The notes under the pieces: generated by a model | What the model saw: the letters and a program-made list of their open reading frames with translations, nothing else | The model's database searches: none | Told to the model about the DNA's origin: nothing | Origin: a virus | Reading direction: 5' to 3' (one strand) | Virus record (IMG/VR): IMGVR_UViG_3300032285_001029 | Coordinates: 1 to 64,000 of that record | DNA: 64,000 nucleotides | Shown: positions 1 to 11,780 of the stretch, one piece after another | Position numbering within the stretch: position 1 is the stretch's first letter | Layout of the letters: the number at the start of each line of letters is the position of its first letter | Program-made: the position numbers and the translations under genes

Positions 1-1
1 A

Positions 2-427
2 ACTGCTAACGTGCAACTGTTTAGCAACATTAATGCAGCAACTAGCGTGTACGCTAATGCAGTAAAGCGCAGCGCAGCTAAAATTGCAACTAACAGCGCA
101 GAGGCAGTTGCTAACTTTACAGCACAACAAAATTACTTTACGCATACAGCTTGCTACAGCGTAGTTAAGCATAACACTAACAACAACTTGTACTTGTATT
201 GCATTTATAACAATGCTAGCAGCTTGTACTTTATTAACAATGTGTTAGCAACTAAGCAGCAAGTAGCACAATACTTAACAGCAAGCGCAGCAGCTAAGTT
301 GCTTAATAATACAGCAACAGTACACAATGTTACTAATAACGTAACGCACAACGTAGTAGTGCGTACTATACAATTAAGCAACATAGTTACTATTAACGCA
401 ATGCAGCAGCAGCTTGTAGCAGCTTAA
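2..427 (+). CDS. Low-complexity protein, C-terminal part (gene cut by window edge)
   Basis: No family is recognised. The frame is open to the window edge (a GTG at 11 is only an internal candidate start), so this is the C-terminal part, about 141 residues, of a longer + strand gene. The protein is rich in Ala, Asn, Thr, Val, Gln and Tyr; it has no Gly, Asp, Pro or Trp and a single Glu. This follows from the DNA, in which GA, GG, TC and CC dinucleotides are almost missing. The frame nevertheless avoids the TAA and TAG triplets that are common in other frames, and two terminators follow the stop. Both facts favour a real gene. Function is unknown; no signal peptide or membrane segment is visible in this part. 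Confidence 0.55.
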   Translation, partial: TANVQLFSNINAATSVYANAVKRSAAKIATNSAEAVANFTAQQNYFTHTACYSVVKHNTNNNLYLYCIYNNASSLYFINNVLATKQQVAQYLTASAAAKLLNNTATVHNVTNNVTHNVVVRTIQLSNIVTINAMQQQLVAA

Positions 428-441
428 CAACATACATAGTG

Positions 442-462
442 CGCACTCGTATAGTGCGTTTT
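442..462 (+). terminator. Small hairpin terminator after the low-complexity gene
   Basis: Six-base stem CGCACT/AGTGCG with loop CGTAT, followed by TTTT, starting 15 bases after the stop codon. It is the first of two adjacent hairpins. Confidence 0.5.
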
Positions 463-465
463 ACA

Positions 466-499
466 GCAGCGTTAGCGTAATGTTAACGCTGCTTTTTTT
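466..499 (+). terminator. Rho-independent terminator
   Basis: Nine-base perfect stem GCAGCGTTA/TAACGCTGC with a nine-base loop, followed by seven T. With the hairpin just before it, this forms a tandem terminator for the + strand gene ending at 427. Confidence 0.8.
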
Positions 500-727
500 G
501 TTGTAAAAATACAACAGGTGTCGGCTATAACTGCACAGTATAGCACATTTTTTTGCGCAACGCAAGCATTTTTTTAAAATATTTTTATTATTATTTTTGC
601 AAGAGGGTGGGAGACATGCTTTTTTATTAACTATTATTTTTTTTGCAACAGCGCAAGCAAAAATTGAGGGGTATTGCCAAATCACCAGACCAAATCTATA
701 AGTACTTCTTTTATTTTTTTCGCAGTC
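500..727. other. AT-rich intergenic stretch without a supported gene
   Basis: Between convergent units there are long A and T runs, a G-rich patch near 603-613 and one copy of TATAAGTACT at 697-706, which recurs at 1681-1690. No convincing gene was found. A - strand frame at 461-685 is Lys/Cys-rich, crosses the T-run of the + strand terminator and has no ribosome binding site. Confidence 0.5.
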
Positions 728-754
728 AAAAAAAATAGGCCCCTAAGGACCCAT
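728..754 (-). terminator. Terminator of the small fibre gene
   Basis: On the - strand, ATGGGTCC pairs with GGGCCTAT (two G-T pairs) around the loop TTAG, followed by a run of seven or eight T. It lies 24 bases after the stop of the gene ending at 778. Confidence 0.7.
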
Positions 755-777
755 TCATAGTAAATTCTATTGTAAGC

Positions 778-4888: not shown

Positions 4889-7800
4889 TTAGGCCTGAGC
4901 TTCACCCCAACGTAAAACCATGTTAGTAAGAACTGGGCTACCTTGTGTTAGGTAAACATTAATGGCCAATACGTCTGGACCATTAGGGAATGTACCGCGT
5001 CCGCCAATTGGCGTATTAACCAGTTCTTTAAGTGGGCTTAGGTCGATGCTGTCCTTACTGCTAGGGTTACTGACGAATGAGAAAATAGTTTCGCCAGGTA
5101 GTGCATAGGTATTGCGGCTGAATGTTACTGGCGAACCGTAAGGTAAGCTAGTTACAATTGCGTTGTTTAGCGTAATAGAGTTACTGCTTACACTGGTTAC
5201 ACGACTGTTGCCCGATAGACCTGTTGTAGTGGTAAATGTTACGTCATCGCCTAAACGCACACCAGCTACTGTTGGATCGCTTAGTAGAAACATTGTTGTG
5301 GCGCCCGACTGTGGACCTACTGATATAGTTGCGCCACTTAGTGCCTGCGATGGCGCCACGCTGACTGTAAATCCTGTACCGCTACCGTTCAATGCTGTTA
5401 CAGTTGTTAAGGCAACAAATGTTCCAGTTCCAGATGTAACTGATACATAGTCACCTACTTTTAGTGTCAAATAGTTAGATACTGTAATAGTTGTACTACT
5501 GCTACTAGCACCGGTTATAACTAATGATGCACCCGAGTTAATGTTTAAACTAGCAGCGCCTTCCCATGTAACGCTGGATCCTGCAGCAACTTGACTAAAG
5601 CTAGGCTGTCCACCAGCAAAGTAGGTATAACTAAAACTCTGTAGCGTATTCCAAGTAATATTGTTTACATTAGTCGGATAGTTCTGCGGATTTAACACAC
5701 CTTCAATAACCAGTGCTGAGTTTGAGTTAGTTGTACCGCCTGCAGTAATTTCTAATCCCTGTAACAGTAGTTGCGCACGATTTAGTAGTTCACGTACACC
5801 TAAGTCTCCTACAATAGCGTTTGATACACTAGGTGCTAGTCGAATTGCAAAAGCAGTTGTTTTTCTTGTACTGACTGAAACGTTGGTACTTTGATAGTTA
5901 AAGATGTAGCCGCGATCTGTATCAAATCCGCCGTCAGTCATAAATGCTGAACCCCAATGGCTAACTACAGGAGTAGCTGTTTGATTAATTAAAATTACAC
6001 CCGTGCCCACTGGCATCGTAGCTGCAGTACCTCCACTATATGTTCTAGTAGATCCTGCAGCAAACTGCGAGAATGTACTAGCTCTAGTACAGCCTGTAAA
6101 TGTAGTAGGAGTCTTTCCAGTATAGTTGACAATTTCACCGTCAGCCCATAGTGTACCAGTGCTAGGGAAAAATGTAGTATCTGCTACAGTTAATGTAGTA
6201 TCTATACTAGCAGCCTGTGTAGTTATAGCAGTCTTAGGACCTTCGTTGATAACTTCATATCTAACTGGTTGGTTACCTGAACGCATATAAGCTTCTGTAT
6301 TTACGTTAGCTGCTTTAACACGATGTACAGTAATATAATTACCTTCGGGTCCGCGCAACATCCAATCTATAAAGCCTGCACCGTACCAAGTCCATTGTAT
6401 ACCCACCATCTGCATTTTGTTTGGTAATAGTCCATAACCGCTGGGATTGTAAACACTATTAGTACCGTCGCAACGATCTATGTTCCACTGATTTTGCGGT
6501 GTAATAAATTCTTTAACTTTTACACATTTTACACCTGTCAGGTTTGTGCTGCCTCTGAAGTCCGGTGTGACATATAGTTGGGTATCACTTGTTACACTAC
6601 TAACTAAGTGTGTCATACCTTTGATAACAATCCTATCACCTTCGCTTAATTGTCCAAGGAAACGTGTATTAGTTCCTGTAACAGTATTACTATCAGCATT
6701 AATGGCAATAGTACCTGCAACTTGGAATGTTGAGCTGCGATAACCTACTGCTACAGTCTGTCCATCATATTGCCAAAACTGACCGTTTTGATCGTCGAAT
6801 GTACCTGCACGTACAGTTGCTCCGGCCCAGTTGACTAAACTGACTAAGCAAGGAGTGCCAATGGCAGCGTTAACATCCGCTAAAACACTTTTTGCTAATA
6901 CAGTAAATTGACGTTCATCTACAATGCTGTTTACTGTATAGGTATCATTATAACCGCTAGTAGTAACACCAGTGATAGTAACTACTGCACCCGCTTGCAG
7001 ACCATGATCAACATCGTCTGTAGCTACTGTGATAGTCGATCCAATTGCAGTGCCAGTAGCAGTTAAACTACGCAAATCATAGTTGGGTGCCATTAACAGA
7101 CCTGTGTTGTAGTTAATAGCTTTACCTGACTGATAACGAATATATTTTTTACTTTGACGTATGGCCTGTGCACCATGTGCTGGACCGCCTGTACCTAGCT
7201 GTACGCCGCCGTCAAATGGTCTGTGAACATAAAAACAGTCAGGTCTTGTATATACTGTACCCTGTACAAGATATGGATTATAGTTAATTGTAGCAGCAGA
7301 TAATCCAACAGTTGGAAATTGATTTACTGTAAACTGTGTACCATTTACATTTACGCTAGTTACAGTTGTGTTGGCAGCAAACGATCCTGTTCCTGCACTA
7401 ACAGTCACTTGACTACCTACCGTTAATCCTGTTGTACTAAAAACAGTGATTGTTAAACTGTTTGTAAAACCACTGCCACTGGTCAATGTTCCTGCACTAC
7501 CTACTAGAATTGTACCTGGTGCTCTTGCTGTATATGTCAGTGTTGTCGGTGTAGGTACACTTTCAACGAAGTAAGGACCTTGCGCAAGACTATGACTATT
7601 AACTCCGTTATCCGATGTTATATTAACTAAGATAGTATCGGCAGGTATCAGTCCGTGTGGACTGGCAAATGTTGCTGTAATTACTGGTGTAGCAGCACCG
7701 GTGTAAGTAAATGTAGTAGTCCCAATTGTGGAACCTGTATAAAATCCGCCTTTTCTTAATTGCGTATATGTTGTACTTAATACATCACCGTTACTTGTCC

Positions 7801-8509
7801 CTACTTTAGCTTTTGCATAGTAAGTAAATGTAGTTGTTGTGGGCACGGTGTTGATAATAAATGTACCTTCTGCACGGCTAAATCCGCTAATAGTATTTAG
7901 ATAACCTTTAATTGTTACCGGAGTGCCGGTAGAAAATCCGTGCGCACTTACTGTAGTAACAGTGATTAAACTAGCGCCACTTCCGCCTGTTCCCGTTGAT
8001 GCATCTGTTGTAACTGAAGTAACTGGTGTATCTGTACCTGGGATTTCGTATACACTAGGATAGTTACGCATCAAGTCAAGCACTTGCCATTTAGTTGGCT
8101 GTAGTCCGTATTCAAAGTCAGCGTCTAGCATACTTTGTGGATTAGCAACACGAGTACGTTCAAACGCATCTGTACCTACATTGGCTAATCTGACTTGTTG
8201 GATAGGATTATCATAAAATATCTGTAGTGTGTCACCGGATAAATGTGTATTAGTACTTACAGCCAGCGTAATTGTAGTATACCCGTCACTGTTACTAGTT
8301 GCGGTAGGAAATGCGGTACTATTAGCCCTTGTAAACGTGCAAGCGGTATTTGCATACGTTGTGTCAGCAAAGTTGTATATGATAATATTTCTAGTTACGT
8401 TAGTGATTAGCAGTAGTTGACTCAAATCAACTTTTCCAGGTACTACAATAGTCCCAGAGCCAGCATTACCTGGTGTGTACACATACGTTCTAATCTGCGA
8501 TTTTGACAT
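4889..8509 (-). CDS. Large virion structural protein
   Basis: A 1206-residue Thr/Ser/Gly/Val-rich beta protein. The N-terminal 170 residues include the stretch MLDADFEYGLQPTKWQVLDLMRNYPSVYEI, which I recall as conserved in large structural proteins of marine T4-like phages. A run of repeated beta modules follows (patterns such as VTTVSAHGFSTGTPVTIKG, ATFASPHGLIPADTILVNI and VATDDVDHGLQAGAVVTITG: about 70 residues each, with HGL/HGF plus a hydrophobic V.I.G core). A C-terminal domain ends in NVYLTQGSPVLTNMVLRWGEA. It is most likely a baseplate or fibre component. The start has AGGAAATAAA immediately upstream. It is the last gene of a four-gene fibre operon and has its own terminator. Confidence 0.7.
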   Translation of the reverse strand: MSKSQIRTYVYTPGNAGSGTIVVPGKVDLSQLLLITNVTRNIIIYNFADTTYANTACTFTRANSTAFPTATSNSDGYTTITLAVSTNTHLSGDTLQIFYDNPIQQVRLANVGTDAFERTRVANPQSMLDADFEYGLQPTKWQVLDLMRNYPSVYEIPGTDTPVTSVTTDASTGTGGSGASLITVTTVSAHGFSTGTPVTIKGYLNTISGFSRAEGTFIINTVPTTTTFTYYAKAKVGTSNGDVLSTTYTQLRKGGFYTGSTIGTTTFTYTGAATPVITATFASPHGLIPADTILVNITSDNGVNSHSLAQGPYFVESVPTPTTLTYTARAPGTILVGSAGTLTSGSGFTNSLTITVFSTTGLTVGSQVTVSAGTGSFAANTTVTSVNVNGTQFTVNQFPTVGLSAATINYNPYLVQGTVYTRPDCFYVHRPFDGGVQLGTGGPAHGAQAIRQSKKYIRYQSGKAINYNTGLLMAPNYDLRSLTATGTAIGSTITVATDDVDHGLQAGAVVTITGVTTSGYNDTYTVNSIVDERQFTVLAKSVLADVNAAIGTPCLVSLVNWAGATVRAGTFDDQNGQFWQYDGQTVAVGYRSSTFQVAGTIAINADSNTVTGTNTRFLGQLSEGDRIVIKGMTHLVSSVTSDTQLYVTPDFRGSTNLTGVKCVKVKEFITPQNQWNIDRCDGTNSVYNPSGYGLLPNKMQMVGIQWTWYGAGFIDWMLRGPEGNYITVHRVKAANVNTEAYMRSGNQPVRYEVINEGPKTAITTQAASIDTTLTVADTTFFPSTGTLWADGEIVNYTGKTPTTFTGCTRASTFSQFAAGSTRTYSGGTAATMPVGTGVILINQTATPVVSHWGSAFMTDGGFDTDRGYIFNYQSTNVSVSTRKTTAFAIRLAPSVSNAIVGDLGVRELLNRAQLLLQGLEITAGGTTNSNSALVIEGVLNPQNYPTNVNNITWNTLQSFSYTYFAGGQPSFSQVAAGSSVTWEGAASLNINSGASLVITGASSSSTTITVSNYLTLKVGDYVSVTSGTGTFVALTTVTALNGSGTGFTVSVAPSQALSGATISVGPQSGATTMFLLSDPTVAGVRLGDDVTFTTTTGLSGNSRVTSVSSNSITLNNAIVTSLPYGSPVTFSRNTYALPGETIFSFVSNPSSKDSIDLSPLKELVNTPIGGRGTFPNGPDVLAINVYLTQGSPVLTNMVLRWGEAQA

Positions 8510-8525
8510 TTTATTTCCTATTTCT

Positions 8526-9704
8526 TTATGTTAGGGCAACAGCAACACCAATAGCTAGTGCAGAAATCAAATTTCGTATTCCCACACCATTGACACTTAA
8601 ATTAGTAAATCCTGCGGTAGTAGCAGTTACGGTAGTGGCACCTAAAGTAGTAAAGATACCTGTACTAGGAGTTACACTGCCAATTGCTATGTTATCAATA
8701 GCACCGGATCCATAACTTAACGATCCTGCTACCAATGTTCCTGATACGTATAAATTCTGGCCAATCCATGCACCGCCAGTAACTTGAAGTGCTCCTGTGC
8801 TAGTACCTGATGATACTGTACTACTAGTTATTTTTACATCGCCACCGACATTTAATTTTTTACCTATACCAACACCACCGGCAGTAACAACAGCACCGCT
8901 TCCAGTATTTGTAGAGTCGGTAGTGTTAATAACAGATAGTGTTGTGAATCGTCCACTCAGAGGAGTAGATACTCCAATAGTCATGTTATCTATACTACCT
9001 GTAGTAGTTGGATTAACTGTTACGGTTCCAGTAGGTGATAAACTTACACTGATTGTTGCAGTTAAATTGGTAAACGAGCCTGCGGCTGGTAATATACTAC
9101 CTATTGCAGCCGGGCTGGCTAGATAATTTGAAAATCCTGTTCCTGATACTGTTCCGCTTGCACTTAGGTTAGTTAGCGTAGCAGAACCAGTTAATGATCC
9201 TGTAAATGAACTTGCTATCACAGCGCCAGTTACAGTAAGACTTGTTAGTGTTCCTACGCTAGTTAAACTGGAACTAACAACATTACTTGCTAGACTAGTT
9301 CCTGTTAATCCGGAAGCACTACCGGCATGTGTATCCACATACGTTTTAATTGCATACTGTGTTGGTACAATATGAGAACTATTACTAGCTAATGTAGTAT
9401 CATTATCGAATGCCGTAACTGAAGGCCCTGAACTAAATGCCAGGCTACTAATAGATGTAAGAGAACCGCTTGATAAGTTGCCAGTTACATTTCCAGTTAC
9501 ATTACCTGTTAAATTTCCTGCAAATGTACCTACAACAGTTGCAGCATTTACTGCTGTAGCATTGACTGTAGTAGCATTGACTGTAGTAAAAGTAGGGCTT
9601 GCAATTGGGACCAAATCCCAAGTCGTTCCAGTCCAAACCCATGTGGATCCATCGGCAGTATAGGTATCGTTTGTATCAGGATTTGTTGGAAATATGATTG
9701 CCAT
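8526..9704 (-). CDS. Tail-fibre-type repeat protein
   Basis: A 392-residue fibre protein candidate. The N-terminus MAIIFPTNPDTNDTYTADG followed by TWVWTGTTWDLVP is a common phage adhesin start module with paired Trp. A low-complexity repeat (GNLTGNVTGNVTGNL) follows, then ASNSSHIVPTQYAIKTYVD, which recurs near the C-terminus of the giant fibre at 55276 as NSDNIVPTQKAIKSYI. Repeats of the type GSGAVVTAGGVGIGKKLNVGGDVKI, typical of the neck or collar fibres of T4-like phages, come next. It ends in a hydrophobic tail, LISALAIGVAVALT. Two AATAAATA octamers lie upstream of the start. Confidence 0.65.
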   Translation of the reverse strand: MAIIFPTNPDTNDTYTADGSTWVWTGTTWDLVPIASPTFTTVNATTVNATAVNAATVVGTFAGNLTGNVTGNVTGNLSSGSLTSISSLAFSSGPSVTAFDNDTTLASNSSHIVPTQYAIKTYVDTHAGSASGLTGTSLASNVVSSSLTSVGTLTSLTVTGAVIASSFTGSLTGSATLTNLSASGTVSGTGFSNYLASPAAIGSILPAAGSFTNLTATISVSLSPTGTVTVNPTTTGSIDNMTIGVSTPLSGRFTTLSVINTTDSTNTGSGAVVTAGGVGIGKKLNVGGDVKITSSTVSSGTSTGALQVTGGAWIGQNLYVSGTLVAGSLSYGSGAIDNIAIGSVTPSTGIFTTLGATTVTATTAGFTNLSVNGVGIRNLISALAIGVAVALT

Positions 9705-9740
9705 TGTATTCTCTTATAACTTAATATTTATTGATATTTA

Positions 9741-11780
9741 TTACCAGGTGATAGACCCTGACCCACTTGTAAATTTGTAGACTCTATACCCAGGTCTAGT
9801 AACACCGTTATCGTAAGTATAACTAACACCTGAAATAGATCTTAATGCTGGATATGCAGTTAGATATGCAATAATTACGACACCATTGCCTCCCTTCCCA
9901 CCATTACTTGTTGATCCGCTACCAGATGGTCCACTATATCCGCCACCACCTCCACTACCAGTTCCATCTGTAGCCGCACCACCTGTAGTGTTGCCGTTTC
10001 CAGTGCCAGCACCATATGGACTATAACTATCGGCAGTAGGATAAGAACCACCTGCGGCAGTATTTCCTTGACCATCGCCACCACCGCCACCACCACCTGC
10101 ATAAGCAGTGGTTACACCTGTAATAGTTGAAGTAATGCCGATTCCGCCTTTACCTGGCTGACTTTGACTTGGTATACTTTCACCTATAGATCCAGCACCA
10201 CCGCCACCACCACCTGATGCTCTTCCGCCTCCTGCGCCACCGCCACCAGAACCGCCGTTATAACCTTGTCTTGGTGGCCCTGCAGTACCAGAGCCGCCGC
10301 CTGTAAAGTTTGGACCTGCGCCACCACCTCCAGAACCTCCAGGTTGTCCACTTGGTCCTGAATCGGCCTGCCCTCCACGACCGCCGCCAATAGCAGTAAA
10401 TGATCCCAATGTGCTATTATTCCCACTTGTATTACTGCCACCGCCAGTACCAATACTAACAGACAACGAACCTCCGTATGCTAATGCATATGGCCCAGAT
10501 ACACTGCTTGAAAGTACACCTCCGGCACCACCACCGCCACCGATAAAGCTCGAGCCTCCACCTCCACCACCTACAACAAGATATTCTAAGTAAACTTGTG
10601 TGTCAGCCGCTAACGTACCAGTTCCAGCAGCACTTGATCCACCTGCATTATCGGTCGTAACATAGATTGTATATGCTGTTAATGGATCTAGATTAGAAAT
10701 AGTTGCTGGCAGTGATGCAGGGTATGATACATTAGTTGTTACAGTTGTAGGAGAAGTCGTTATAGTATATCCTGTTGCAGTCGGACCTAAATTGAGTCCA
10801 TCGGTCCAACTAACAAATGCTGTCGTTCCTGCAGTCAATCCGGATGTATTTCTAATTACACTAATGCCAGTCGGAGGGTTAGGTACAGTAATTGGATTGA
10901 CTGTATTACTAGTGCCTGGCGATCCAGGTCCGCCAGCATTTACAGCTTTTACTGTAAAATAGTAACTGTTTGAAGGTGTAAGGCCATTTATTGTTACGGG
11001 TAGCGATAATCCTGATACAGATACCGATTGAGATATCAATGCTGGCACACTAGTAATAGTATACGAAGTTATTGGAGATACTGGTGTTGGTGGAGTCCAT
11101 GTGAGTGTAGCAGATGCGCCGGTTATTCTTACAGCAGACACACTAGTTGGTGCATTCGGAACTACTGTTAATCCCATAGAATTGCTGACACCTGCAGAAC
11201 TCGTTCCTATGCCATTAGTAGCTGTGATAGAAAATGTGTATGCAGTCGATGTTGACAGCCCTATAAGCGCAATTGGTTGCGATAGTAAACTTGCATAAGT
11301 GAAATAATTTATACCTGCAGGTGAACTAGTAACAGCATAGGAGGTAATTGTTGCTCCTCCGTTAAATGGCAAATCGAATGTTATAATACATGATGTTCCG
11401 TCACCAGTTCTTCCTGCAACTACGTTAGTTGGCGCACTTGGTACTGTTACAACACCTACAGTATTACTAGTTGCATACACTCCTGTACCGGCTACATTAG
11501 TAGCGGTGACTTGAAATGTGTAAGGTACTGTTGCTAATATTCCAACAATGGATATTGGCGATGTTGTGCCACTGTTAGTATATCCTCCAGGAACAGATGT
11601 AACTGTGTATGATGTAATAGGTAAATTACCGTTATCTACCGGAGGAGAAAATGATACATCAGCAGTAATACCTGTTGCACCTGTTCTGGCCGCTGATACA
11701 CTAGTAGGCGCACCTGGAACGGACGGAATAACGCTGTTAATTGATAATGTTCTTCCAGATAGTGTAGATAATACAGGCAT
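9741..11780 (-). CDS. Adhesin with four fibronectin-III domains and a glycine-rich domain
   Basis: A 679-residue protein. Residues about 15-400 hold four Fn3-like domains, each opening with a P-x-x-P-T-x-V-x-A type strand (APTSVSAARTG, APTNVVAGRTG, APTSVSAVRIT, PPTGISVIRN) and containing ITSYTVTS-like strands. From about residue 397 a glycine-rich region begins (YLVVGGGGGGSSFIGGGGGAGG) with many GGxGGGG blocks, as in phage receptor-binding tips whose polyglycine helices form the adhesin head (compare T4-like gp38). It ends YRVYKFTSGSGSITW. It most likely binds the host surface at a fibre tip. It lies two bases from the neighbouring fibre gene, so both are co-transcribed. Confidence 0.75.
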   Translation of the reverse strand: MPVLSTLSGRTLSINSVIPSVPGAPTSVSAARTGATGITADVSFSPPVDNGNLPITSYTVTSVPGGYTNSGTTSPISIVGILATVPYTFQVTATNVAGTGVYATSNTVGVVTVPSAPTNVVAGRTGDGTSCIITFDLPFNGGATITSYAVTSSPAGINYFTYASLLSQPIALIGLSTSTAYTFSITATNGIGTSSAGVSNSMGLTVVPNAPTSVSAVRITGASATLTWTPPTPVSPITSYTITSVPALISQSVSVSGLSLPVTINGLTPSNSYYFTVKAVNAGGPGSPGTSNTVNPITVPNPPTGISVIRNTSGLTAGTTAFVSWTDGLNLGPTATGYTITTSPTTVTTNVSYPASLPATISNLDPLTAYTIYVTTDNAGGSSAAGTGTLAADTQVYLEYLVVGGGGGGSSFIGGGGGAGGVLSSSVSGPYALAYGGSLSVSIGTGGGSNTSGNNSTLGSFTAIGGGRGGQADSGPSGQPGGSGGGGAGPNFTGGGSGTAGPPRQGYNGGSGGGGAGGGRASGGGGGGAGSIGESIPSQSQPGKGGIGITSTITGVTTAYAGGGGGGGDGQGNTAAGGSYPTADSYSPYGAGTGNGNTTGGAATDGTGSGGGGGYSGPSGSGSTSNGGKGGNGVVIIAYLTAYPALRSISGVSYTYDNGVTRPGYRVYKFTSGSGSITW

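Follow-up and report, generated by a model that had tools for sequence, protein, structure and literature searches.

The first-step-transfer DNA of phage T5 contains no EcoRI sites, and the early end of T7 is likewise free of restriction sites. Phage CAjan carries 7-cyano-7-deazaguanine at GA and GGC motifs, and APOBEC-type footprints in viral genomes lie in TC and CC contexts. The known depletions of PAMs and restriction motifs in phages are genome-wide and partial. Motif depletion of this type is reported in, for example, PMC4246573, and the anti-phage system CmdTAC ADP-ribosylates mRNA at GA in single-stranded RNA (PMC11618068). The literature searched yielded no case in which two dinucleotides and their complements disappear almost entirely and strand-symmetrically from kilobases of DNA at one anchored locus, and no precedent for target-free leading DNA at dinucleotide resolution.

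The window analyzed here is a stretch of 64,000 nucleotides that forms the left end of a 141,855-bp virus record. The record belongs to a T4-like phage, with genes for portal gp20, terminase, tail sheath stabilizer gp15, the gp25 wedge protein, and a 5'-3' exonuclease. A large virion protein encoded at window positions 4889-8509 is related to structural proteins of cyanophages S-CAM1 and S-CAM3, and a single ORF of 5148 codons spans L004 49-15495 (record 104049-119495). The features at the window start are as follows.

1-600, no strand assigned: last 600 bp of an island free of GR/YC steps (6 observed versus 113 expected), the remainder lying beyond the contig start
2-427, plus strand: 3' part of early gene A, encoding a conserved phage protein (complete length ~190 amino acids; 11 related loci), its 5' end cut by the contig
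465-499, plus strand: intrinsic terminator without any GR/YC step, with a 12-bp stem, 5-nucleotide loop, and T run (fold -18.9 kcal/mol, z -4.9)
500-600, no strand assigned: spacer past the terminator, nearly GR/YC-free (GG 517, TC 521, and GG 523) by sequence and shuffles
679-757, plus strand: conserved single-copy non-coding element AAATCACCA-N11-TAAGTACT...GGACCCATT at the sharp edge of the island, which lies on its 5' side

The first-pass annotation had listed six GA, GG, TC, or CC steps (GR and its complement, YC) in the first 600 bases. Re-reading of the sequence returned exactly those six (GA 101, GG 103, TC 447, GG 517, TC 521, and GG 523). Its estimate that about a hundred would be expected was borne out, base composition predicting 113 (ratio of 0.05), and the annotation had, if anything, understated the feature. 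The mean ratio of 300-bp windows over the whole record is 0.87 (s.d. 0.14). No GR/YC-free run elsewhere exceeds 57 bp, compared with one of 344 bp within positions 1-600. A maximum-entropy table in which only these four cells are forbidden came fairly close to the counts of the remaining twelve dinucleotides, among them a threefold excess of GC. The absence of GR/YC is therefore essentially the whole rule.

As had been noted, the protein of frame 2-427 contains no Gly, Asp, Pro, or Trp; it has a single Glu. When codons were shuffled for the same protein under the codon usage of the genome, 25 sites were expected and the minimum was 10 in 2000 trials, compared with 2 observed. The non-coding stretch 428-600 is also depleted, with 4 sites observed, 29.7 expected, and a minimum of 14 in 5000 shuffles. 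The rest of the window is free of the feature, in agreement with the annotation: the mild avoidance found there (0.55-0.75) vanishes after amino acid correction, the gene median in this genome being 0.97 and only gene 2-427 falling below 0.6. Because the ratios of the virion genes are normal once the protein sequence is taken into account, the weak residual avoidance in those genes reflects amino acid composition. Positions 1-600 are the right-hand end of a larger island that is cut by the contig start.

Relatives of gene A were found at 11 loci in other IMG/VR records (about 44-73% identical), and no homologue was found among cultured phages (INPHARED) or in bacterial and archaeal genomes (GTDB). 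An AlphaFold2 model of the protein (pLDDT 84.6) had no fold match in the PDB and matched only uncharacterized phage proteins in BFVD. The island genes gave no convincing Pfam or PHROGs family, and an Rfam search returned tRNAs only. Comparison of gene A between two island-bearing relatives, G001 and G003, gave a dN of 0.056 and a dS of 0.467 (dN/dS ~0.12); the protein is under purifying selection.

Islands of 0.6-8.4 kb, each with one sharp edge, are present in 10 other phages, one in each. In the 11 long records scanned whole, strong clearing occurs at one locus only, some records having weaker secondary patches. Codon-null ratios have a median of 0.93-1.02 per genome, on which ground a genome-wide bias was rejected, and are 0.0-0.2 for core island genes; values below 0.3, normalized for protein sequence, occur at the island only. 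Of the first 9 related loci, 8 have gene A inside an island. Two phages, G008 and G009, have an ordinary family A; the relative in L015 has an ordinary composition (ratio of 0.92). In L018 (G009), gene A, at 10001-10537, encodes a protein with Asp, Glu, Gly, and Pro, and it is a second family, B, nearer the late region, that is fully cleared. Family B is also cleared in G005 and is ordinary in G002 and G011. Composition thus does not follow the protein in all relatives, as it should for an unusual or low-complexity family, and the earlier suggestion of an unusual repeat-like gene is rejected by the codon nulls together with the ordinary homologues of families A and B. The clearing depends on genome position rather than on the gene.

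The element at the island edge is ~80 bp long, with the consensus AAATCACCA-N11-TAAGTACT(T/C)C...GCGCnGnAATTTTTTT...GGACCCATTTCG. It borders the island in the window, G004, G006, and G009, with variants in G001, G003, and G007 and a partial copy in G011; at the island edges of G002, G005, and G010 it was not recognized. A pattern scan of IMG/VR found further parts of the element in at least 89 among the 119 matches listed; none was found in cultured phages (INPHARED). All 50 records tested contained exactly one copy. Additional islands or partial islands lie beside it in L124, L113, and L181, and weaker ones in L082, L098, and L143. In every case it is the AAATCACCA side that is cleared, the other side being ordinary, and in most cases the clearing fades with distance from the element. 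Most other element-bearing phages have no strong island and show a weak dip only. The highly conserved element is a candidate for an origin, a packaging start, or the early/late boundary.

Records tend to end near the element on the island side: among 51, 19 end within 2.5 kb of it on that side versus 2 on the other. Such ends may reflect broken assembly where the early region varies, or a preferred genome end. A physical genome end at the island is not claimed, the contig ends clustering on the island side but at scattered distances. L113 (G031) and L181 (G056) are identical over positions 1-496 (496 bases); their sequences part immediately after TAAGTACT, within the element, which suggests recombination at the element.

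The island of G004 is an array of ~600-bp cassettes, each with a promoter (TTGCAT or TTGCAA, N16, and a TATAAT-like sequence), leader, small gene, terminator, and spacer. Observed versus expected GR/YC counts were 30/472 in coding DNA, 1/83 in leaders, and 0/67 at 3' ends. In the spacers, which are designated untranscribed from predicted promoters and terminators, GA plus TC gave 11/164; GG plus CC gave 87/122, with the sites clustered in a conserved GGGGC...GCCCC element. An inverted repeat of the type GCGCGCCCC...GGGGCACGC is found in each cassette spacer of L011 7000-12600, and GG/CC is tolerated almost nowhere else. In L009, GAGGGACG/CGTCCCTC inverted repeats located between genes of the island (9560-9730 and 10510-10630) tolerate GG/CC too. 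Ordinary promoters of relatives L018 and L013 have the -35 sequence TTGACA, which contains GA; the islands use TTGCAT instead. AAGGAG ribosome-binding sites are absent from core island genes and present in the half-cleared genes beside the core. The rule also holds for an island gene encoded on the other strand (L124/L196). Since it extends to promoters, leaders, terminators, and predicted untranscribed spacers irrespective of the coding strand, the avoidance operates at the DNA level.

These data bear directly on whether the pressure could instead be on RNA, through avoidance of Rho loading (YC), of an mRNA ADP-ribosyltransferase such as CmdT (GA), or of an endoribonuclease. The loss of Shine-Dalgarno sequences from island genes and the modification of mRNA GA dinucleotides by CmdT (PMC11618068) would be in keeping with this, but the clearing of GA/TC extends to promoters and predicted untranscribed spacers, the sense strand avoids GR and YC alike, as does the opposite-strand gene, and CmdT does not act on CC (PMC11618068). 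The avoidance is thus limited neither to transcribed RNA nor to one strand. Sheltering of residual sites in RNA hairpins was looked for and not seen, which also counts against an RNA-level pressure; we consider it improbable. Scarcely less improbable is local hypermutation, in which a YC-specific cytosine deaminase, either a host defense or phage-encoded, would have erased the sites. Deamination of C after a pyrimidine was among the causes first proposed; YC is an APOBEC-type context, the outcome would be symmetric if both strands were hit, and the codons retained where an amino acid forces a site could reflect purifying selection against a mutator. The pattern of sites looks like selection rather than mutation, as do the promoter change and the lost Shine-Dalgarno motifs: in half-cleared genes, avoidable sites stand at 0-0.24 of expectation (e.g. 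0 versus 19.8) and 7-36 sites forced by Asp, Glu, Gly, Pro, or Trp are still present (tabulated with row "G001 18242", read out of frame, left out), and in core genes the forced amino acids themselves are replaced, e.g. Glu by Gln, Asp by Asn, and Trp by Tyr. Between G001 and G003, GR/YC losses affect both bases of a step and end in any base; just 8 of the 51 events are YC to YT or the complement, so there is no excess of YC to YT or GR to AR such as a deaminase footprint would leave. Island GC content is that of the genomes (0.36-0.44) and is not lowered. The island is ~90% identical between these two phages, the flanks mostly lower (about 55-80%), and few stretches of the alignment are as well conserved as the island core. 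Deamination is accordingly not supported. Losses of any type combined with a well conserved core make a very fast local mutator unlikely.

The main rival is chemical gating by DNA modification, in which the G of GR (or the C of YC) would be modified and the island would be target-free so that host RNA polymerase reads unmodified immediate-early genes. It would account for a DNA-level, strand-symmetric avoidance, each island cassette has a sigma70-like promoter and a terminator, and a target of G before a purine resembles the 7-cyano-7-deazaguanine motifs of CAjan. We nevertheless regard it as unlikely: genes for QueC and TGT/DpdA, for C5 and N6/N4 methylases, and for dCMP hydroxymethylase were not found in the 12 records, which are incomplete (a ThyA-type, i.e. 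thymidylate-synthase-type, gene occurs only in G011), and some neighboring early genes (L018 and L013) use the ordinary GA-containing promoters. Somewhat more doubtful still is a structural or replicative role of the sequence itself, as an origin, packaging start, or protein-coated DNA. The single-copy, oriented element at the edge would fit such a role, as would a slight dip 300-900 bp 5' of the element even in non-island phages (0.78 versus 0.87), but these are raw values without amino acid correction, the same weak dip is present on the 3' side (0.76-0.79), and the islands vary in both length and gene content. Escape from CRISPR-Cas with YC-type PAMs in the earliest exposed part of the genome would also be DNA-level and strand-symmetric, and motif depletion is reported for phages of CRISPR-bearing hosts (PMC4246573). 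Such escape is very improbable given that removal is near-complete, has an amino acid cost, and takes in all TC and CC steps instead of a three-base PAM.

What is established is a near-absolute avoidance that is DNA-level, position-bound, one-sided, and graded and that overrides the choice of codons, regulatory consensus, and amino acids, with the protein still under purifying selection. Among the three causes offered by the first-pass annotation, avoidance of a nuclease or modification target fits best. Our preferred reading, put forward tentatively and as somewhat short of probable, is that a 5'-GR/YC target has been removed by selection from the early-gene DNA of a single, exposed position in the genome. 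With the same reserve, the island may be a locus-anchored "clean zone," purged to survive a dinucleotide-reading, DNA-attacking system that acts before protection is in place. Selection on double-stranded DNA would remove strand-symmetric 5'-GR-3'/5'-YC-3' from a fixed position that adjoins the late genes, on the early-gene side of the conserved, oriented element. The agent would be an enzyme that acts on DNA and recognizes GR/YC; the simplest candidates are a host nuclease, nickase, or base-attacking defense enzyme, although it could also be the phage's own take-over enzyme. It would reach the island before the rest of the genome is protected, for example if the island enters the cell or opens first. 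The island genes would have to be expressed unharmed and may encode the protection.

Several observations count against this reading. Thousands of GR sites persist in the rest of each genome, which calls for an ad hoc difference in exposure; most element-bearing phages have no strong island, and three islands have no recognizable element; and the GG/CC-rich spacer element persists in G004. These T4-like genomes may be circularly permuted, which would weaken the idea of a first-entering end, and we know of no defense enzyme that cuts at such a dinucleotide. If selective clearing of an exposed position is nonetheless correct, the finding implies a GR/YC-specific enzyme and an exposure that differs along the phage genome, and the island proteins would be candidates for early counter-defense. 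The avoidance is so strong that protein, promoter, and ribosome-binding sequences have all been altered under it, and the islands provide examples from nature of proteins that function with hardly any Asp, Glu, Gly, Pro, and Trp.

By analogy, the closest precedent would be the restriction-site-free leading DNA of T5 and T7. As in the T5 first-step-transfer segment, the motif is missing from one segment and present elsewhere, and the segment, here proposed to be exposed early, carries early genes. Unlike in T5 and T7, the missing target is only two bases long and is absent over kilobases, and the clearing costs Asp, Glu, Gly, Pro, Trp, the -35 consensus, and Shine-Dalgarno sites. The 7-deazaguanine (Dpd/QueC) phages share a strand-symmetric DNA target of G plus a purine, but in the islands the motif is avoided, and the modification genes were not found in the 12 records. 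CmdTAC likewise has a dinucleotide-level target that includes GA; it acts on single-stranded RNA and not at CC, whereas predicted untranscribed DNA also obeys the island rule. APOBEC footprints have the same dinucleotide contexts and strand symmetry, but the islands have no C-to-T signature, keep their GC content, and are nearly completely cleared at one locus. PAM and restriction-motif depletion resembles the islands in the under-representation of a defense target, the agent at the islands being a proposed one, and differs in that the island avoidance is local and near-total.
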